A DNA stretch of 44,921 bases from Afipia sp. GTDB lineage: Bacteria; Pseudomonadota; Alphaproteobacteria; Rhizobiales; Xanthobacteraceae. Where the stretch lies: assembly GCA_017474385.1 (NCBI GenBank), contig JAFVHU010000060.1:1-44921 (forward strand), given 5' to 3'. Positions 32,182 to 44,921 of the stretch are shown piece after piece. Made by a program: the position numbers and the translations under genes. The notes under the pieces were generated by a model. That model made no database searches. It had not been told where the DNA came from and saw only the letters and a list, made by a program, of their open reading frames with translations. Position 1 is the first letter of the stretch. Every line of letters begins with the position of its first letter.

Positions 32182-33315
32182 TCAGCCATAGGCCGCCCGG
32201 TAGCGGCTGGTCGTCTTGGTTCGGTCGAAAGTACCACGGGCATACCGCAGGGCACCGTCACTCAACGAAGACCATTCAGCGCCCATCGCATAGATACCCT
32301 GCAATCTGTCTACAAACATCTGAGGTTGAGTTAGCGGTAGCGACCAGCCTGCATTGAATGTCTCCACGTTGGTCCATGGCGCACGATCGCTGATCAACAC
32401 AGGTACACCGAGAGAAAGTGCCTCGACGATCGAATGACCGAAATTCTCGCCTAATGTTGGATGCAACAGAATGTCATATTCTGTAAGTTGTGCGAAAAGC
32501 AGGCCCTTTTCGATGCCTCCGAGAAACGTGATCTGACTATCTCCTAGTTCGTCCTGGATCATTTTTTTGCAGGTCGCGTAGTAAGCTTGATCGGATATGT
32601 CACCGAATACGCTCATCGTCCAAGGGATGTTTAGGTCACGGAGAATCCGAATTGCGAAAATCAGATTCTTTTGCACGGTGACGCGGCCGACGAAAGCAAT
32701 CCTCAACTGGTTGCTTAGTTTCGTTCGCCTTGCGGGATTCGCCGGTATCGACTCCACGAACTGCGAGACGACCTGTATGTCCTGCTTTCGGAGATGATTG
32801 CGCCGAATATCTGTCTCTTCTCCTGGTGATCCGGCCAGATGGGTGACGTTCCGATAGAGGCCTACCGCATCGCTCAACAGACAGAAGGCTCTTTTCCTCA
32901 ACCAGCTCGCTGACATGATGACGTCCATGAATATTCCGTGTGGGGTATGAAAAACACGGCTTCTTCTGGAAAACCCAAGCCTGCAGAGAATAAGAGCTGG
33001 GATTGCGAGCAGCGGATCGAACGCGCATTGGATATCGACAACGTCGTAATTTTCCTTGAGCCTCTTTAGCAGAATACGCAAACCGGCGAGGCCGCGAGGA
33101 ATGTATTCGACGCAGACATTATCCATTTCCTCGACGTGGACAGCGTCATTGAACAGGGGGGCTCCGGTCGCGAACTCGAAATTTAGCGTCAAAATATGGA
33201 ATTGATACTCCGTGCTCATGTTGTTGACTAGATTCCGGATCGCTGTCGCAGGCCCTAGGTGCGATGTTGACGGAAAATAGGAGCGATAGATAATTAGCAC
33301 GCGTTTTTTGTTCAT
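32182..33315 (-). CDS. GT4-family glycosyltransferase
   Basis: 377 residues from the ATG at 33315 (MNKKRVLIIYRSYFPSTSH), chosen over the upstream frame to 33411 because it matches the usual GT4 start. The C-terminal half has the GT-B fold signature: IAFVGRVTVQKNL and the EX7E motif in ENFGHSIVE followed by ALSLGVPVLISD. It transfers a sugar from a nucleotide donor to the growing lipid-linked unit. It starts four bases after the beta-helix gene stop. Confidence 0.9.
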   Translation of the reverse strand: MNKKRVLIIYRSYFPSTSHLGPATAIRNLVNNMSTEYQFHILTLNFEFATGAPLFNDAVHVEEMDNVCVEYIPRGLAGLRILLKRLKENYDVVDIQCAFDPLLAIPALILCRLGFSRRSRVFHTPHGIFMDVIMSASWLRKRAFCLLSDAVGLYRNVTHLAGSPGEETDIRRNHLRKQDIQVVSQFVESIPANPARRTKLSNQLRIAFVGRVTVQKNLIFAIRILRDLNIPWTMSVFGDISDQAYYATCKKMIQDELGDSQITFLGGIEKGLLFAQLTEYDILLHPTLGENFGHSIVEALSLGVPVLISDRAPWTNVETFNAGWSLPLTQPQMFVDRLQGIYAMGAEWSSLSDGALRYARGTFDRTKTTSRYRAAYG

Positions 33316-33319
33316 CTGG

Positions 33320-35407
33320 TTATGGGCTTTCTGAAATGGATCCAGATGCCAGTGAAGCGCCGACCTGATCATCGATGCGCATCGGAATGGAGCGAATACC
33401 GTGGCGTTCAATTTCCTTGGCGACCAGTGTTAACATTCCACCGAGGTCTTTGAGCTTCGTTTTGTTTCGAAGACTCTCGAGCAGTTGCAATGAGCCAGAA
33501 TAAACAACGGCGATGTTTTGCCTGATGGCTGCTGTCTCCAGTTTTCCATCCGTGGCAGTTATCGATCCGCCGCCAAGAAACGTGTTTCGTTCGATTATAT
33601 TACGCTCAGGTTTGAGCAGGTCAGAATCGCGATATCTGGTTAATTCGGGATAGCGTGAAGACCATGGCTCGCTGCCGATCGGAAGGCGATAGAGCTCTCT
33701 GACTGACAGGCCATTTGGAACGCTCATATGGTCATTCTTCCAGATCTGCCACCAAGGCTGGTAGCCTAGCGCGCTAGCCCAGATCGATGGATTGCTCATG
33801 ACAAAGATGTTGGAGGCTAGCCTGTTATCCTTGCCCCCGTTCAGAACGATCCCGTAGGGAATACCTACGATGATGTTCTGTATGACGGTATTCCCGCTAG
33901 AAAACTCATCCAGATAAATTCCGCGAGCGTCATTGAAGTATCGCTCACCTGTACCAAGCAGAATGTTTCTGCGAATGACGCTGCCTTGGCTTGTGAAGTC
34001 CCGTCCTGTGTAGAAAAAGCCAGAATCGCCGGCTTCCGTGAGAAGCTGGCCCATGACATTGTTTTCAAAGAGATGATCGTTTCCCGAATACATGACGGCG
34101 GATTGCGGACCATTGAAGATCACGTTTCTTCGGACCCGGACGCCGACGCCATCGGCTTGAATCGCTGGGGCGTAGGTGCGCTCGACCAGCGAGAAATTGG
34201 ACAGAAATGAATCTTCAAGTACAAGCCCACTGCTCGTCAATGTAGTGCGGTCTCCACCTGATAGCCAAACGGCGCGGCCGCCGACGTTTCTTATCGTCGC
34301 TTTGCTGACGGTGGAGTCGCGGGTATTGGTGTACGAAATTCCGTCGCCGCCCGTGAGCTGAACAATGTTGTTTTGGAAATCAATGTTGGAAGAGTCACGG
34401 ACGTCGATTGCTGTTCCGTTAGCCAATTCAAAGATGATATTTTCAAATCGCAGTCCACTTGCACTAGAGATATTCAGTAACGTATCTGCCGTTGCTATTT
34501 CAAGTTGCTCAATTGGCGCGTTAGTGCAGAAATTAAGAGAGCGGTTCTGCGGATCGTAGAAAAAGGAGTCACACGTGACAAAGGATCTCAGATTATAAAG
34601 GTACAGTCGCTCAGGCGGCTTTCCGTCAGCGCGCATGCGTGCTCGCTCGACCCAGACTCGTCCTGCGGAATCTGCCGCCTCCGCGCGGGCATGTACGAAA
34701 AAGTAGGGATCTGTAAAGTATCCGGCGACCCAGAGCCCGGGTACGATCGCCTTGTTTTCTGAGGCGCCTAGTCCAAACGGCAGCGACGCAAGCCTGCCGA
34801 TCAGAGGGGTGCCGATATTTTGAATTTGCGCGAATCCTTGCGCGGGCCATCGCGTTGGGTGAAGTGGCAGGTTGTTGTTGGCGCGAATTATAATCTTTTG
34901 CGGCGATGAGGTCGCGAAGGTGTCAATGAGCCTTTTGCTGGTATCGGCTGGGAAGTCGGAGAGGGCGAGCGTGTACTTGTATGGGCTACCGCCAGGGTCA
35001 GCCGTTTTGAGGAATCTCTCCGCGCGAAAGCCACTCGAGATTCGTGTGCCTGTCCTCGGAATCCCCGAGAGTATGATGCGGGTGCCCTCCGGCGCGCGCA
35101 GGCCTTCCAACACAATCGATCTGTCCAGGGTAATCGCCGGATAGGCCAGGTTGATTCGATAGGTGCCTGGCTTATTGCCGGCGGCGATGTCCGATCTGAC
35201 GATATCTATGGCCTGACTGATGTCAGTAGCCGCTCTATGCGACGACGCAGGCGAGGACGGGCCGACATCGATTTCGACATCCTTGCAATAGGCGACGGTT
35301 GTGCCGGCGATGAGCACAAAGCCAATCCGGCAGCATGCCCCGATGACAGATGTGAGTTGGTTGATCACGAGTCTGGTGAGCAGAAGGCTGGGCTTGAAAC
35401 CGCTCAT
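33320..35407 (-). CDS. Secreted right-handed parallel beta-helix protein
   Basis: 695 residues from the ATG at 35407; the open frame continues to 35587. The N-terminus (about 1-40) holds a hydrophobic export segment. Residues about 300-560 contain the regular coils of a parallel beta-helix (FENIIFELANGTAIDVRDSS, NIDFQNNIVQLTGGDGISYT and similar), as in NosD, pectate-lyase and polysaccharide-modifying folds. No clear catalytic set is visible, so lyase, epimerase or structural roles remain open. It heads the minus-strand run of GT4, methyltransferase, polymerase, acyltransferase and flippase. Confidence 0.83.
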   Translation of the reverse strand: MSGFKPSLLLTRLVINQLTSVIGACCRIGFVLIAGTTVAYCKDVEIDVGPSSPASSHRAATDISQAIDIVRSDIAAGNKPGTYRINLAYPAITLDRSIVLEGLRAPEGTRIILSGIPRTGTRISSGFRAERFLKTADPGGSPYKYTLALSDFPADTSKRLIDTFATSSPQKIIIRANNNLPLHPTRWPAQGFAQIQNIGTPLIGRLASLPFGLGASENKAIVPGLWVAGYFTDPYFFVHARAEAADSAGRVWVERARMRADGKPPERLYLYNLRSFVTCDSFFYDPQNRSLNFCTNAPIEQLEIATADTLLNISSASGLRFENIIFELANGTAIDVRDSSNIDFQNNIVQLTGGDGISYTNTRDSTVSKATIRNVGGRAVWLSGGDRTTLTSSGLVLEDSFLSNFSLVERTYAPAIQADGVGVRVRRNVIFNGPQSAVMYSGNDHLFENNVMGQLLTEAGDSGFFYTGRDFTSQGSVIRRNILLGTGERYFNDARGIYLDEFSSGNTVIQNIIVGIPYGIVLNGGKDNRLASNIFVMSNPSIWASALGYQPWWQIWKNDHMSVPNGLSVRELYRLPIGSEPWSSRYPELTRYRDSDLLKPERNIIERNTFLGGGSITATDGKLETAAIRQNIAVVYSGSLQLLESLRNKTKLKDLGGMLTLVAKEIERHGIRSIPMRIDDQVGASLASGSISESP

Positions 35408-35481
35408 TTTACGATAGCAAATGCAACGTTGAGCCGATAAAAAGTGCAGGAAAGTAAATCGCCAAGAGATCGATACTTCGT

Positions 35482-35910
35482 ATGATGCCGATGCGCTGGA
35501 TTGCCTGCGTGCCCATCCTGTTCGCGACCGGCGGTAACGCCATCGCTCAGGCTGCTTTGTCCCCGGGGCAGTCGCGTGACAGGCCAACTTTGGGATCGAC
35601 GCCGGGTGTCGCTGTGCCGCGGGATATGTCTCCGCCGGGGAGCATCACGCTGCGTCATAAAAGTCCCGGCGGAAGCGTATGTCTGAGGGTTATGGGCTTC
35701 GCTCAACCCTTCAGTACAAATCCTAACTTGTTCAATCACTGGATTACTGCCGAAAATTCGTGTGGCAATAGCATCAGATTTCAGGTCTGTTATTATGGGA
35801 CCAGAGACTGCATCAATATGATTGTCTCAGGACGGGAGCGAAAGGACGCCATCCTTGGAACGGTACCATCTATCAAGGACTTTCGATACGAGTACGTTGA
35901 GAAATTTTGA
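35482..35910 (+). CDS. Small secreted protein, unknown
   Basis: 142 residues from the ATG at 35482. A short signal peptide (MMPMRWIACVPILFATGGNA, cleavage near AIAQ) precedes a proline-rich segment and a domain with four Cys (VCLRV, NSCGN, QVCYYGTRDC) that may form two disulfides. No family recognised. It is divergent from the beta-helix gene and followed by another small secreted protein. Confidence 0.65.
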   Translation: MMPMRWIACVPILFATGGNAIAQAALSPGQSRDRPTLGSTPGVAVPRDMSPPGSITLRHKSPGGSVCLRVMGFAQPFSTNPNLFNHWITAENSCGNSIRFQVCYYGTRDCINMIVSGRERKDAILGTVPSIKDFRYEYVEKF

Positions 35911-35944
35911 TCCACGCCTGCAATCTTACTGACGGAGATTGTCA

Positions 35945-36211
35945 ATGATTAGATTGTTTTTTTCTGCGGTCCTGATCGCCGTGTGTGGTGGAAATGCGAG
36001 TGCGGCCGAATTGGAATTGCGTGGACCGCGTTCTTATTCCTCCGTGCATCGGGTTGCTGACAATTGTCACATTCAGCGTTGCGGGCCAGCGCGCTGTGTC
36101 ACGTTCAATATTTGCCGGTGCCCGGATCCTTATTCCTGTCGCGGATTATATGACGCTTATGGTCCATATGGCGGACGGGCTTATATGAGTGCGTATACCC
36201 GATACTACTAA
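35945..36211 (+). CDS. Small secreted Cys/Tyr-rich protein, unknown
   Basis: 88 residues from the ATG at 35945, with GGAG about eight bases upstream. The signal peptide is MIRLFFSAVLIAVCGGNASA. The mature part has several Cys (NCHIQRCGPARCVTFNICRC) and a Tyr/Gly-rich tail ending TRYY. No family recognised. Its stop overlaps the end of the convergent glycosyltransferase gene by four bases. Confidence 0.62.
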   Translation: MIRLFFSAVLIAVCGGNASAAELELRGPRSYSSVHRVADNCHIQRCGPARCVTFNICRCPDPYSCRGLYDAYGPYGGRAYMSAYTRYY

Positions 36212-37470
36212 GACGGATTGGGTTCGATCCTCGATGGAACGGGCTGTTGTATGCGCGTTAGCGGCGCACTCGGAGTCGGGAGCGTTTTGAAGATCGTTTC
36301 GAAACGACAGGCAGTCTGTTCGATGTCGAACATTCGCTCCGCATATGCCCTGGCGTTCGATCCCGCCGTCGCTCGTTGTGCGGCGTCGCCGATAAGCGCA
36401 CTTACTGCTGCGACAAAGTCGGTTCTGCTTCCCGCTGCGACGATCACTCCGGCATTGCTTTGTGTCACGATTCGAGCGGCGAGATTTTCGCATGGCGCGG
36501 ACAGCACGATGGGCCGACCGGCACAAAGATAGCTCAAAACTTTTGAAGGGACGGAGTAGGTCCCAGCATCAGATTCCAGCAATGCGATCGCAACGTCTGC
36601 AGTCCCCAGCACATTGGGAAAATCGGCGAAGGGCTGAAATGGGAGCACCATGATGTTGTCCAGCCCAGCTGCTTTGGCATGATCTGAAAGCCAGTCTGCG
36701 AACGGCCCTTCTGAAATCACAACAATCTTGGTGTCGGGTTCATGTCGCAGGCTTTGCGCGAGGTCGAGAATTTGTTGCGGGTCGTGCTTGAGACCTATGG
36801 TGCCGCTATAAAGAATAACCTTCTTGTCAGCGAGACCGTGACGGCTCGACCACGGGTTGCTCTTTGCGCAAACCGGAATTTCGCCGAGCGGCGCCCAGTT
36901 TTCAATAACATGCACATTGCCCGTCGATAATGCGAATTGCTCCTCTATAGCCTCAAGAAAATCCGGGCTGATGACGATCGTCGCGTGGCTCATAGAGATG
37001 ATCCGCTTCTCCATGTAATTGTAATACGCGCCGATGGCTTGTCCGATTCCGCCAAATCTGCGGCCGAGAATCTTACGAATAGCCACAGAGTAGATATCCT
37101 GCTGCCAGAAAACAAATCGCTGGTTTGATTTGAGGGCGCTTTTTCCTATCTGTAGTGCACAATCGAGCGGGCAATTGCACGCGACAACGATATCCGGCCC
37201 GAATGCGCTAATCGTCGCTGCGAAGGCCTTGCCGATCTTGATTTCCTCAAAGCGTCGCTTGAAGAGTGAATACTTTGGGAATGGTCGTCCCAGCGAGACA
37301 GGCTGTACCGTCAGGTTTGTCGAATCGTCTGCGTGCTTTTCAAGCCTGCCGTGCGGGCTTTGAAATTCAGAGAAATGCAGATGCAAAACGTCATGGCCTT
37401 TTCCTGCCAGTGCCCGAGAAAGCTGTATAGGAAAGGCATGTCCGGAATAATCGACAATCGCTATTCGCAT
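36208..37470 (-). CDS. GT4-family glycosyltransferase (WcaI/WbuB-like)
   Basis: 420 residues. It is a GT-B glycosyltransferase with a long N-terminal acceptor-side domain; the C-terminal donor domain shows VILYSGTIGLKHDPQQILD and TYSVPSKVLSYLCAGRPIVL, the pattern of colanic-acid-type GT4 enzymes. It starts 26 bases downstream of the initiating transferase gene on the same strand and likely adds an early sugar of the repeat unit. Confidence 0.88.
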   Translation of the reverse strand: MRIAIVDYSGHAFPIQLSRALAGKGHDVLHLHFSEFQSPHGRLEKHADDSTNLTVQPVSLGRPFPKYSLFKRRFEEIKIGKAFAATISAFGPDIVVACNCPLDCALQIGKSALKSNQRFVFWQQDIYSVAIRKILGRRFGGIGQAIGAYYNYMEKRIISMSHATIVISPDFLEAIEEQFALSTGNVHVIENWAPLGEIPVCAKSNPWSSRHGLADKKVILYSGTIGLKHDPQQILDLAQSLRHEPDTKIVVISEGPFADWLSDHAKAAGLDNIMVLPFQPFADFPNVLGTADVAIALLESDAGTYSVPSKVLSYLCAGRPIVLSAPCENLAARIVTQSNAGVIVAAGSRTDFVAAVSALIGDAAQRATAGSNARAYAERMFDIEQTACRFETIFKTLPTPSAPLTRIQQPVPSRIEPNPS

Positions 37471-37496
37471 TAAAATTACCCCGCAGAACGCGAGCG

Positions 37497-38978
37497 TCAG
37501 CGCGCGTTAATATAAGTTTTGCCCGAGAATATCGTGAGCATGATTATTTTTAGATCGAACAGGAGCGACCAGTTATCGATATAGTAGAGATCGTATTCGA
37601 CGCGCCGTTTCATTTTCTCAAGCGTGTCAGTTTCACCCCGCAAGCCGTTAACCTGCGCCCAGCCGGTCAATCCGGGTTTGACGTTGTGGCGACGGGAAAA
37701 ACTCTGAATGTGAGGAATGAACATCCGATTGTGCGGTATGGCGTGTGGACGCGGTCCGACAACTGACATGTCTCCGCGGAGAATATTCACTAACTGAGGT
37801 AGTTCATCGATACCGGTAATACGGAAAATGCGACCAATACGCGTAATCCTTGGATCTCCGATCGTTGCTTGTTTGAAATTGGCCTCTGAGCTTGCAAGCA
37901 TCGTTCGGAATTTCAGGACGCGGATCGGCCTGTTGTTATAGCCGTGGCGTATCTGTTCGAAAAAGATCGGACCTTTCGAATCCAGCATAACGGCAATTGC
38001 GGCCAGCAACATCAACGGCGAAAGAAAGACCAGCGCAATGGCAGCAAAGCAAATGTCGAATAATCGTTTAATGGCTCGGTCAAGGATCGAAAGTGGTGGC
38101 GTGGAAACCGCGAATGCCGAGATGCTGCCCAATTCCACCAGACGCGAATTTGCGTATACGTCGGCGTATGGCGGAATCACATAGATCATCGCGGGCAACT
38201 CGAGGAAGGAGTTTACCAGCGAGTTCAAGTCAGCCTTATCGGTGTTTCCCGTGAGGATAACGATATCGTCAGCCTGCAACATACGACACTGCTCGATGAA
38301 ACCGGCCATCGCGAGTGGCGATTGGCGATCACGTCTGATGTTGTCCGGTATGTTGCGGCAAATGATTTGAACGTTGTCGTTCAGGATTCTTAATCGTCCG
38401 GTGTACTGATCGCAGTGGGCTTCGTCCCCAAAGACGATCATGCGCCTACCCGGGATCTTGCGCTTGGCAATAGCCATCTGAAATCCGGAAAAGATTGCGG
38501 AGCGAATTGCGAGGCTGGCGAGACAGCAGCCTGCGAGCTGCAGTATGAGAATTTCGCGCGAATAATGTGCGGTTAGCTTAAACAGAAAGAGGAAGGCGAT
38601 CAGTAGAAGGAAGGTGAGTGCGACGGAAAGCAACCCGCTCCAGAGGAAGCGGTCGCGTCGCTGTTTTTGCGCATGGCTGAATTGGCCGAGGAAAACTGAT
38701 ATCGAAACTTCTGTTACGCCGATGAGGAGCGCGACGAAGGTGTATTCTCCAATGAAAGCGCTGTTGGGGTATACGGTGGAATGATAGGCGACCGCGCAAA
38801 ACAGGGACACTAAAGCGAGAACGAGACATTCGACCAAGGCGATGGCACAGAAAGCCGTCACCAGTTTCGGGCTGGTAAATTTGTCCTGAATATTATGCTC
38901 GCGCCCAGCTCTCGGCTCCGGCCCGATGGCGCCGGACTTCAGTGCCAAGCTGCTTGGAGCGTCCTTGAAAAACGACAT
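37497..38978 (-). CDS. Initiating polyprenyl glycosylphosphotransferase (WcaJ/ExoY family)
   Basis: 493 residues from the ATG at 38978 (GTG at 38999 also in frame). Four to five N-terminal membrane segments and a Rossmann-like domain precede the catalytic bacterial sugar transferase domain: KRLFDICFAAIALVFLSPLM, GPIFFEQIRHG, RVLKFRTM, SVVGPRPHA and the KPGLTGWAQVNG/YYIDNWSLLFDLKII ending. It transfers the first sugar-phosphate, usually glucose or galactose, to undecaprenyl phosphate. With the following GT4 it forms a two-gene unit. An 11-base-spaced direct repeat lies just upstream. Confidence 0.93.
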   Translation of the reverse strand: MSFFKDAPSSLALKSGAIGPEPRAGREHNIQDKFTSPKLVTAFCAIALVECLVLALVSLFCAVAYHSTVYPNSAFIGEYTFVALLIGVTEVSISVFLGQFSHAQKQRRDRFLWSGLLSVALTFLLLIAFLFLFKLTAHYSREILILQLAGCCLASLAIRSAIFSGFQMAIAKRKIPGRRMIVFGDEAHCDQYTGRLRILNDNVQIICRNIPDNIRRDRQSPLAMAGFIEQCRMLQADDIVILTGNTDKADLNSLVNSFLELPAMIYVIPPYADVYANSRLVELGSISAFAVSTPPLSILDRAIKRLFDICFAAIALVFLSPLMLLAAIAVMLDSKGPIFFEQIRHGYNNRPIRVLKFRTMLASSEANFKQATIGDPRITRIGRIFRITGIDELPQLVNILRGDMSVVGPRPHAIPHNRMFIPHIQSFSRRHNVKPGLTGWAQVNGLRGETDTLEKMKRRVEYDLYYIDNWSLLFDLKIIMLTIFSGKTYINAR

Positions 38979-39000
38979 CACGCAAATGCCTAAATACACA

Positions 39001-41264: not shown

Positions 41265-42584
41265 CTAGACGCGTGTGACGGTGTCCCGCGTGATCTGATC
41301 AATGGTAAGTGCGCCAGCCTGACGCATGATTGTGATGAACTCGTCGTCCAGAATCTGGAGCACGCGGTCCACGCCGGGTTCGCCAAACGAGGCGAGACCC
41401 CACACATAGGGCCGGCCAACGCCGACGGCCGCTGCACCGAGGGCCAATGCTTTCAGGACATCGGTACCGCGACGTACGCCGCCGTCGATAAGAACTGGAA
41501 TGCGGCCGTTTACCGCGTCCACTATCTCAATCAGAACACCAATCGTCGCCTGTCCGCTTTCTTCGGCGCGTCCGCCGTGATTGGAAACCAGGATACCGTC
41601 CACGCCGTGGCGCAGCGCCTCCTTGGCGTCTTCACCGGTCACAATGCCCTTCAACAAAAGCTTGCCCTTAACGATCCCACGCAGGCGGTCAACGAATTCC
41701 CACGTCATGCCGGTACCGTAAAGGTTCGTGACCTTCGAAACGTCGATGCCGGAGAAATTGCCTTTGCGGGTGACCTCGTTGGCAAAGCCCGGTGTGTGAC
41801 AGCCAGAACAGTCGCGTTGGTCCTGACGCCGCATACGGAACAGATCCTCAGTGTTACGGCCGCCTTGCCGATCGACAGTAAGGACGATAGCAGGACAGCC
41901 AGCGGCCTCGGCGCGTCTGACCAGCGCTTGTGTTACGGCCCAATCGTCTGTTGGATAGAGTTGAAACCAGGCCGGCGAGCCGTGCGCTTTGTTTACGTCG
42001 GCGATAACCGCGTTATCGACTGTCGAGAGGATCATCTGGTGCCCGCGCTTACCGGCCGCGCGCGCCACTGTGACCCCCGCCTCCGGGTCGTAGGCGCCAA
42101 GACTGCTGACCGGGCAGATGAAGATGGGGCTGCTCCAACTTTCGCCGAAAATCTTCACGCCGGTGCTAGCTTTGCGCGCGTCGATCAGACGTTTCGTGCG
42201 GATGTTGTAACGAGCGTATGCTGTATGATTGGCGTCGCGTGTTACGTCGCCGTCTACTCCGCTTTCCAGATAACCCCAGTGTGCTGGCGCGTCCTGACCT
42301 AACACGGCCTTCTTCGCCGCAGGCTCGAACTCGAACACATTCAGCGCGTCCCCAGGCGCGCTGATGATACCGTCCGGGCCTAGCGCCTGGCGAGAGCCAC
42401 GCAGGACATCATAGCTCTGGGCCAGTGCTTGGCTCGGTAAAGAAGCGAAAACGGTTGCAACGGCAGAGGTGATCGTCGGTGTCGCGACAAGCGGGCTCGC
42501 TGCGAGAAAACTCAGGAATTTGCGGCGCGCGATTATTCCGCGTTCCGAAATTTCGGGCCATTTAGGAGTCGTCGGCTTTTCCAT
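41265..42584 (-). CDS. Tat-exported FMN-dependent alpha-hydroxy-acid oxidase with internal CXXCH
   Basis: 439 residues from the ATG at 42584, with CGGAG upstream. Residues about 15-60 form a twin-arginine signal (IARRKFLSFLAASP). The mature protein is a lactate-oxidase/flavocytochrome-b2-type FMN barrel: STVDNAVIADV, FQLYPTDDWAVTQALVRRAE, IVLTVDRQGGRN, LLLKGI, the catalytic His336 in VSNHGGR and DGGVRRGTDVLKALALGA. In the loop after TVD it has DCSGCHTPG (41796-41810), a CXXCH motif of the type that binds heme c. Family members oxidise 2-hydroxy acids; the substrate here is unknown. Periplasmic location and a possible heme would suggest a dehydrogenase passing electrons to cytochromes. Confidence 0.9.
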   Translation of the reverse strand: MEKPTTPKWPEISERGIIARRKFLSFLAASPLVATPTITSAVATVFASLPSQALAQSYDVLRGSRQALGPDGIISAPGDALNVFEFEPAAKKAVLGQDAPAHWGYLESGVDGDVTRDANHTAYARYNIRTKRLIDARKASTGVKIFGESWSSPIFICPVSSLGAYDPEAGVTVARAAGKRGHQMILSTVDNAVIADVNKAHGSPAWFQLYPTDDWAVTQALVRRAEAAGCPAIVLTVDRQGGRNTEDLFRMRRQDQRDCSGCHTPGFANEVTRKGNFSGIDVSKVTNLYGTGMTWEFVDRLRGIVKGKLLLKGIVTGEDAKEALRHGVDGILVSNHGGRAEESGQATIGVLIEIVDAVNGRIPVLIDGGVRRGTDVLKALALGAAAVGVGRPYVWGLASFGEPGVDRVLQILDDEFITIMRQAGALTIDQITRDTVTRV

Positions 42585-42961
42585 GACTGTCTCCGTGATC
42601 GACGTTGACTTCAAACCCAACACCCAGCCGCTTCATTTCCTGATTGCCCAGCAGGGAAGATGGTGATCACCGCGGCGGCCGAAATTATATGTCAAAGCTG
42701 AAACGGATGCATGTGTGTGTGGTTTGATGTTAGCATCAGAGCGGCACGAACCCGATATCCAGTTCCCGTGCGACGGTTCGATACCGAGCCCTATGCGATT
42801 TCCACTGCGCCTTGACGTTTCTTGAAGCTGAGGAAGCGAAGTTCGGACTAATGCACTTCGGCCAACGTTTCGCCAATGAAACGACCGCTATAGATAGAGA
42901 TAAACGTGGTCGAGTATCCGCTAACTCGTTGATTCATCATGATCGGCTTGGTTAGTAGGCT
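42585..42961. other. Gap before the right attachment repeat
   Basis: 377 bases without a recognisable gene. A 30-codon minus-strand frame (42940 to 42848) is open but has no identified relatives; part of it, SIYSGRF, resembles DIYSGRW in a reading near 40410. This region may hold gene debris. No integrase or excisionase remains were found. Confidence 0.4.
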
Positions 42962-43008: not shown

Positions 43009-43093
43009 ATTTTTTCAATTGCTTACAACGAGAGCTGATCGCAAGAATTGGCCTTCCCCACAAAAATTCCCACAGAAACGACCTTCTTTTGTT
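43009..43093 (-). repeat. Right copy of 85-base block following the tRNA sequence
   Basis: Same length as 12102-12186; the outer 42 bases (43052-43093) differ by one base, the inner part is diverged. The minus-strand frame GRFCGNFCGEG... ends at a TGA (43017-43015) exactly seven bases from the tRNA end, as in the left copy. Confidence 0.5.
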
Positions 43094-43386
43094 TGCCGGA
43101 TGAAGCACCGGCAGAACAAGTACTGAAGGACATTCGGCGTCAGACCCGCCGGCAATACTCCGCCGAAGAGAAGATCCGCATCGTGCTGGAAGGGCTGCGC
43201 GGCGAGGAGAGCATCTCGGAGCTTTGTCGTTGCGGGGGCATCGCCGCCTCGATGTATTACGGTTGGTCGAAGGAGTTCCTGGAGGCCGGCAAGCGGAAGG
43301 GCCGAGACGATCCTGGCCGAGCGTCAACGCACAAGCGTGCCGCCGTCGCATACCGCCGCTTGCAGCATCAGTTGCAGGCTGCTTAA
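43094..43386 (+). pseudogene. IS3-family transposase, orfA joined to the orfB tail by deletion
   Basis: The frame reads DEAPAEQVLKDIRRQTRRQY then SAEEKIRIVLEGLRGEESI and MYYGWSKEFLEAGKRK, the helix-turn-helix orfA part of an IS3-type transposase. It then jumps to YRRLQHQLQAA and a stop at 43386, which matches the very end of the orfB remnant at 12498. About 1 kb including the DDE domain is therefore deleted. The right terminal sequence ends in CTGACGACGGACA at 43460. Confidence 0.85.
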
Positions 43387-43705: not shown

Positions 43706-44040
43706 GCGACGAACCACACCGAGGGATGATCGCGCCACCAAAGACGCTCGATTTGATCGGATGGTCTTCTTCTTGGACGGCCGCCACACAGTGCGAGCGA
43801 ACAGCTCGGCTGCTAAGGCGGCCATAGTAAGGATTCGAAGACCGAAGAGGCTGCGTTCGCACACGGCGAAGGTGTCGAGAGGCGCGCACGAACAGTCGAT
43901 CTCCACGAGCGAGATGCGTTCAGATGGTCAGCGAGGTAGTTTTGAATTGTAATAATTCTAAATCATTGATTTTTTTCGGATTTTTGTTGACGGCGAACGC
44001 CTGACCATGGTCTCAACCGGCTCCGAAATTGGGGGTAATA
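43706..44040. promoter_or_regulatory. Upstream region of the receptor gene with a possible Irr/ICE-like site
   Basis: 335 bases without a convincing gene. At 43946-43962, ATTGTAA-N3-TTCTAAA keeps one exact half of the rhizobial iron control element (TTTAGAA-N3-TTCTAAA) and four of seven bases of the other. It lies about 80 bases before the receptor start, in a locally AT-rich patch. Iron control would suit the gene but the match is partial. Confidence 0.35.
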
Positions 44041-44921
44041 ATGACCAGTGCACGGCATGAAACGAAATCGATCCGCCGCACCAAAGGAACCATCGGTGGG
44101 TTGCTCTGGAGCGTGACTGCGGTCGCGCTGATGTCGACGACTACAGTTTGTCTCGGGCAGGCGGCCGACACGACTGGAAGCGATTCCACAAGCGCAACGG
44201 AATTGCCAGAAATCACGGCGCGGGGTACCTGGCTCGGTCTGTCCACCGAAGGTGATGTCCGCACTTATCCTGGCGCCCGAACCCTGGTCACGGCCGAAGA
44301 GATCAAGCAGTCAGGTGCAAAATCTGTCGAGGATGTTCTCCGTCGCGTGCCGGGCATCCAGATTTTCGACGAAACAGGCATCGGCATCCTGCCGAATATC
44401 GGCGTGCGCGGGCTTAATCCCCTGCGCAGCGAGCGGACGATGGTCCTCGTCGACGGCGTGCCGATTGCTCCCGGGCCCTACACTGGCACGGGGCTGTCCC
44501 TGTTCCCGGTCACACTCGAATCCATCGACCGGATCGATGTGGTGCGTGGCGGCGCAGCGGTCCATTATGGCCCGAACAATATCGGCGGCGTGATCAACAT
44601 CATCACCAAGCAGGTGCCGAACCGGACGACGGCAACGTTGAGCGAGAAGCTTTCGTTTGCGACGCGGAGTGGGAAACCGCTGACCGATACGTACATGAGC
44701 GTCGGCGGCCCCATCAACGACCAGGCCGGGCTGCAGCTTCAAGCCAATTTTATCGGCGGCTCGACTGATCGCCAGCATTCGAACAACAGCGTCATCAATG
44801 TGCTGGCCGACGGCTATGTGAATTTGTCGAACAACTCTCGCATACGAACTCAGCTACAGTACTACAGGCTCGATTCCGAATTGCCGGGTGCGCTGACGCC
44901 GCTAACCTATCAGCGCGATCC
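44041..44921 (+). CDS. TonB-dependent outer-membrane receptor (FecA-like), 5' part
   Basis: 293 codons are visible before the window ends. A signal peptide (hydrophobic core near residues 20-40, cleavage near LGQA) leads to a TonB-box-like ELPEITARG and the plug domain: AEEIKQSGAKSVEDVLRRVP, GIQIF, NIGVRGLNPLRSERTMVLVD, IDRIDVVRGGAAVHYGPNNI and GGVINIITK. The first strands of the barrel follow. Such receptors import ferric chelates or other large substrates. The ligand cannot be read; overall form is close to ferric-dicitrate-type receptors. The start ATG at 44041 follows a GGGGGTAATA. Confidence 0.92.
   Translation, partial: MTSARHETKSIRRTKGTIGGLLWSVTAVALMSTTTVCLGQAADTTGSDSTSATELPEITARGTWLGLSTEGDVRTYPGARTLVTAEEIKQSGAKSVEDVLRRVPGIQIFDETGIGILPNIGVRGLNPLRSERTMVLVDGVPIAPGPYTGTGLSLFPVTLESIDRIDVVRGGAAVHYGPNNIGGVINIITKQVPNRTTATLSEKLSFATRSGKPLTDTYMSVGGPINDQAGLQLQANFIGGSTDRQHSNNSVINVLADGYVNLSNNSRIRTQLQYYRLDSELPGALTPLTYQRD

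Follow-up and report, generated by a model that had tools for sequence, protein, structure and literature searches.

A conserved CXXCH motif on the putative active-site lid of a predicted Tat-exported FMN hydroxy-acid enzyme, and its possible role in heme c binding

The gene and its protein

The DNA under study, referred to as the window, is a stretch of 44,921 nucleotides from Afipia sp. Its minus strand contains a gene of the FMN alpha-hydroxy-acid oxidase superfamily that starts with an ATG codon at 42584. The features of this gene are listed below, where "rows" denotes aligned proteins of a pooled set of homologues, and L032 denotes a close relative that lacks the motif.

41265..42584, minus strand: gene for an FMN-dependent hydroxy-acid dehydrogenase/oxidase; 439 amino acids, putatively exported, assigned by Pfam and fold match
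42591..42594, minus strand: GGAG, a likely ribosome-binding site ahead of the ATG, read from the sequence
42492..42527, minus strand: core of the twin-arginine signal, RRKFLSFLAASP, residues 20-31, called by pattern and by eye; RR in the family
42279..42281, minus strand: His102, candidate second heme ligand; 65/65 rows with CXXCH versus 3/50 others
41940..41942, minus strand: Trp215, linked with CXXCH; 62/65 versus 0/49, with L032 (Arg) counted apart
41703..41870, minus strand: loop 4, residues 239-294, the putative active-site lid; limits taken from its flanks in the model, lid role from the accessible part of PMC4908395
41796..41810, minus strand: CSGCH, residues 259-263, TGTTCTGGCTGTCAC; codons run from 41810 down to 41796
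41685..41687, minus strand: Arg300, linked with CXXCH; 65/65 versus 3/49, with L032 (Trp) counted apart

Among all stop-to-stop frames of at least 100 amino acids, CSGCH is the sole CXXCH of the window. A preliminary description had placed its codons inside a gene for an FMN hydroxy-acid enzyme, and this position was borne out, on the minus strand. The protein matches the Pfam family FMN_dh (PF01070) with an E value of 2.3e-102 and a score of 343 bits (cut-off, 24.9), and stays below the curated NCBIfam cut-offs for LldD (187 versus 550 bits), L-lactate oxidase (170.9 versus 645.5 bits), and MftD (177.7 versus 470.85 bits). Pfam detected neither a cytochrome c domain at an E value of 0.001 nor an N-terminal cytochrome b5 domain. 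As it has no b5 domain, the protein is not a flavocytochrome b2, and as no profile matched, it is outside the known cytochrome c domain families. Its first 78 residues comprise a signal and a linker. Residues 18-31 read IARRKFLSFLAASP, in which the twin-arginine motif precedes a hydrophobic stretch, and by prediction the protein is most likely a Tat substrate.

An AlphaFold2 model of the window protein, built with 33 sequences (mean pLDDT 86.5), predicts a beta/alpha barrel that matches glycolate oxidase (1gox) with a TM score of 0.92 by target length, and other hydroxy-acid oxidases too. A chain of flavocytochrome b2, 1szf_B, ranked 39th among the fold matches, and other b2 chains were matched as well. 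Glycolate oxidase and lactate oxidase (1gox, 5zbm, 7f22) share the fold, the catalytic residues, and the loop 4 lid with the window protein, but have no CXXCH and no His102. In the model, loop 4 is flanked by a strand (232-236) and a helix (295-304), and the motif itself appears as coil with a pLDDT of 74-83; a model of another member, L030, instead puts a short helix (214-217) over the motif, in a block with a pLDDT of 60. According to the accessible part of PMC4908395, loop 4 of lactate oxidase (residues 173-222) closes over the active site and parts of it are often disordered, and the substrate is held by Tyr40, Tyr146, and Arg268. Since loop 4 closes over the active site there, CXXCH is, by analogy and in the model, located on the lid of the FMN site. 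The earlier placement of the motif in the loop following TVD was correct, and this loop corresponds to the active-site lid.

The catalytic residues Tyr105, Tyr210, Asp238, Lys312, His336, and Arg339 are each kept in 65 of the 65 rows with CXXCH. Tyr105 corresponds in the alignment to the active-site Tyr of glycolate oxidase, and His102 sits three residues before it. Column 245, which was taken as the equivalent of Arg181/Arg164, is Arg in 24 of the 65 family rows versus 48 of 50 relatives, so substrate binding probably differs between the two groups. Position 160, which lies at a site that tunes oxygen reactivity in relatives, is occupied in the family by Gly (38 rows), Ser (19 rows), or Ala (8 rows).

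Conservation of the motif and of the residues linked with it

Relatives were sought by scanning one genome for each of 84,980 species (genome_contigs) for six peptide patterns that did not include CXXCH. The scan yielded 42 loci, 35 of which carry CXXCH at the same aligned place. Four of the remaining seven (L032, L036, L037, and L041) truly lack the motif; two (L038 and L039) stop at a contig end before its place, and in one (L040) the match begins after it. Within the window's phylum, whole-genome profile searches recovered members with CXXCH in 6 of 398 genomes (8 matches at E<=1e-90, 2 of them without CXXCH). Further such searches recovered them in at least 19 of 297 genomes of the phylum of the L019 genome (33 matches), in at least 9 of 293 genomes of the order of the L030 genome (43 matches), and in 1 of 288 genomes of the phylum of the L013 genome, this one being the L013 genome itself (15 matches, all read). 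A plasmid copy in Methylobacterium bullatum has CTDCH, the His, and the signal, and two more distant plasmid homologues, from Rhizobium and Roseateles, have neither motif nor signal. Genome G1142 holds three matches to the family profile, one of which, L109, is a fast-evolving copy with CXXCH. The Phyllobacterium copy (L010) is split into parts that lie in different frames close to the end of a contig, and represents either a broken gene or an assembly error.

The pooled set comprised 115 non-identical rows out of 123, rows of short coverage (e.g., L034 and L038-L040) having been dropped beforehand. CXXCH is present in loop 4 of 65 of the 115 rows, and these span Alpha- and Gammaproteobacteria, Acidobacteriota, and Verrucomicrobiota. 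In a quick tree of the 115 rows, for which the N-terminus, residues 99-104, and loop 4 were omitted, the 65 rows group together with a single other row, L032 (SH-aLRT 87). A careful tree of 57 rows, of which 23 have CXXCH, likewise recovered the CXXCH group, including L032, with a support of 100/100. As the 65 rows were chosen by having CXXCH, the fair figure for its conservation is 65 of the 66 rows of this clade. Within loop 4, no columns other than C259, C262, and H263 reach a conservation of >=95%; in the remaining ones, the mean share of the top residue is 0.47, and the XX of the motif is filled by 29 different pairs across the 65 rows. A group from Gammaproteobacteria has a shorter segment behind the motif and still keeps CXXCH. 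Six Acidobacteriota rows (L069 and L071-L075) have an extra CxxCG between signal and barrel that is zinc-knuckle-like and could be a zinc knuckle, as well as a common C-terminal tail ending in GFGL.

A signal of the RR type, called by pattern and by eye, precedes the barrel in 63 of the 64 CXXCH rows that have their N-terminus; the remaining one has KR, and a further row is truncated. The two Cys and the His are therefore kept together with the signal through nearly the whole clade, as the preliminary description had proposed to check. It had also counted a homologue with the same signal and no CXXCH against a heme. One close relative, L032, is such a protein, and His102, Trp215, and Arg300 are missing from it too. 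Tat-like signals without CXXCH also occur in the more distant L076, L077, L080, and perhaps L088; such a signal is not exclusive to CXXCH proteins. His102 without CXXCH is found in three rows (L076, L077, and L078). L076 and L077 combine a Tat-like signal with His102, and perhaps belong to another exported FMN hydroxy-acid branch.

At positions 102, 215, and 300, L032 has Ala, Arg, and Trp, respectively, and it has Phe for the catalytic Tyr105; it retains the RR signal, Arg132, Trp395, and Phe400. In the alignment, CXXCH, His102, Trp215, and Arg300 thus behave as one set, which L032 lacks as a whole. Both trees place L032 inside the family, and a joint loss of the linked residues is therefore favored, though not proven. 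Alternatively, L032 may be the nearest outgroup. A branch separating the CXXCH rows from all other rows was present in 6% of 200 bootstrap trees. A joint loss was not favored by an AU test over 109 rows, which did not reject a tree with the 65 CXXCH rows as one clade (p 0.88); this tree was 30.5 log units better than the free tree.

A possible heme c on the lid and its alternatives

On balance, the window gene appears to code for a flavocytochrome c that belongs to the FMN alpha-hydroxy-acid oxidase superfamily, consists of one domain, and is exported by Tat. A heme c was judged the most likely role of the motif because three conserved residues stand in the order typical of heme c, the XX is free to vary, an export signal is present, and a distant His is conserved. 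We infer the covalent heme, its ligation, its closeness to the FMN, the electron acceptor, and the order of assembly. FMN would bind in the cytoplasm, and Tat would then export the barrel in its folded state. After export, loop 4, which is mobile in relatives, would offer CXXCH to the cytochrome c maturation system, and this system would attach one heme. His263 would be the proximal heme ligand, with His102 as the likely distal ligand. Lying approximately at the docking place of the b5 heme in flavocytochrome b2, the heme would receive electrons singly from the reduced FMN and hand them on to a soluble cytochrome c. The enzyme would in this way act as a respiratory dehydrogenase and not as an oxidase that forms H2O2. 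Glycolate oxidase and lactate oxidase are not known to be exported, and use oxygen as the acceptor.

The attachment of heme c to a Tat substrate that is already folded would be unusual. A flexible lid may offer a way round this paradox, with the barrel exported in its folded state and the loop matured later. Exported flavoproteins that work with c-type heme exist, such as flavocytochrome c sulfide dehydrogenase and the fumarate reductase flavocytochrome c3; these have unrelated flavin folds, and their hemes are on a separate subunit or domain.

Among the closest known systems is flavocytochrome b2 (L-lactate:cytochrome c oxidoreductase, EC 1.1.2.3; 1kbi and 1szf), which has the same FMN barrel. 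A heme next to the FMN and cytochrome c as acceptor are features of b2 that are only proposed for the window protein. As described in the accessible part of PMC8348568, a heme next to this FMN site works in b2, where it is non-covalent and sits on a separate N-terminal b5 domain. In the window protein, by contrast, no b5 domain was found and CXXCH belongs to the lid loop; the protein may nevertheless work like both flavocytochrome b2 and cytochrome c proteins.

Several observations were counted against the heme reading: loop 4 has only about 55 residues, neither a cytochrome domain nor a conserved cytochrome neighbor was found, the motif is modeled as coil with modest confidence in the window protein and as a short helix at a block pLDDT of 60 in L030, His102 occurs without CXXCH in three rows, and six Acidobacteriota rows have the extra CxxCG. 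Within the FMN hydroxy-acid enzymes, the family is a branch whose conserved lid probably binds heme. For this family of several phyla, we more tentatively propose that the lid has become the heme carrier, with a bis-His heme c held between loop 4 and His102, directly over the FMN, and attached to the folded flavoprotein after Tat export.

The strongest competitor, which we consider unlikely, is that Cys259, Cys262, and His263 and/or His102 bind zinc, iron, or copper and no heme. Such an ion would fasten the lid loop onto the first helix of the barrel, and would be loaded in the cytoplasm before export, in keeping with Tat being the usual route for proteins that receive their cofactors in the cytoplasm. 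Two Cys and two His, all present in 65 of 65 rows, would suit a metal site, and in the Acidobacteriota subgroup the second CxxCG (6/6 rows) could form a four-Cys zinc site with CXXCH. However, this CxxCG is found in only 6 of the 65 rows, Trp215 and Arg300 are needless for a zinc site, and it is unusual for a Cys and the His adjacent to it to share one zinc.

Less likely still is a periplasmic disulfide between Cys259 and Cys262 that shapes or redox-gates the lid, with His263 and His102 serving the lid or the substrate. The oxidizing periplasm allows a CXXC pair to form a disulfide, the signal predicts that the protein is exported, the motif lies on a putatively mobile lid, and the presence of His102 in 3 of 50 rows without CXXCH makes a role of its own possible. 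This reading leaves unexplained why an invariant His follows right after the second Cys, and why His102, Trp215, and Arg300 change together with the motif. Finally, a fortuitous motif in an ordinary lactate-oxidase-like enzyme, chance being an option raised in the preliminary description, has practically no probability left: CXXCH is short and may arise by chance in one protein, but its conservation in 65 of 66 clade rows over four bacterial groups, despite a mean pairwise identity of 53% over the barrel and an otherwise variable loop, rules this out.

Full-text searches of an open-licence PMC library showed, among the papers listed, none that describes this family or an FMN hydroxy-acid enzyme that is exported by Tat and carries heme c. 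If heme is bound, as in the preferred reading of a flavocytochrome c, the family would represent a second evolutionary way to wire an FMN hydroxy-acid dehydrogenase to cytochrome c, one that dispenses with the extra domain of b2. The attachment of heme c to a folded protein exported by Tat would then become directly testable, and if the heme is indeed added after export, the maturation machinery would be shown to be able to act on a loop of such a substrate. A compact enzyme with FMN and heme c would also be of interest for direct-electron-transfer electrodes. Should the site hold a metal or a disulfide instead, the family would still be an exported branch of a well-studied superfamily for which the same searches gave no description.

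Genomic surroundings

Genes of the cytochrome c maturation system (PF01578) were found in all 36 CXXCH genomes and all four genomes without CXXCH examined alongside, as well as in 31 of 31 further family genomes, one genome probably being in both sets. Background genomes carry them almost as regularly (193 of 199), and 8 of the 14 control genomes exceeded the cut-off. Because they are nearly universal in the background, these genes are uninformative for the heme reading, and they were dropped as a discriminator.

An operon or a cytochrome partner was also considered and set aside, as sharing of neighbors was local only. Among the neighbors of the 42 loci of the pattern scan, which were called by a crude longest-frame rule that gives antisense artifacts in GC-rich DNA, no gene common to more than five loci and no conserved cytochrome was found. 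Genes of the metallo-beta-lactamase fold lie next to L003-L006 (one confirmed by Pfam), and a putative receptor-like gene lies beside L023, L030, and L035. Genes containing CXXCH occur near some Acidobacteriota and Verrucomicrobiota copies; the neighbor of L012 with this motif is a PQQ-type dehydrogenase with a cytochrome domain.

The window gene appears to stand alone. Its neighbors include glycan-synthesis genes and a phosphoesterase. Two group 1 glycosyltransferases, a beta-helix protein, and a bacterial sugar transferase are encoded at 32182-38999, and a transposase piece (HTH_Tnp_1; 43048-43386) and the start of a TonB-dependent receptor (Plug; 44029-44919) are located beside the gene.
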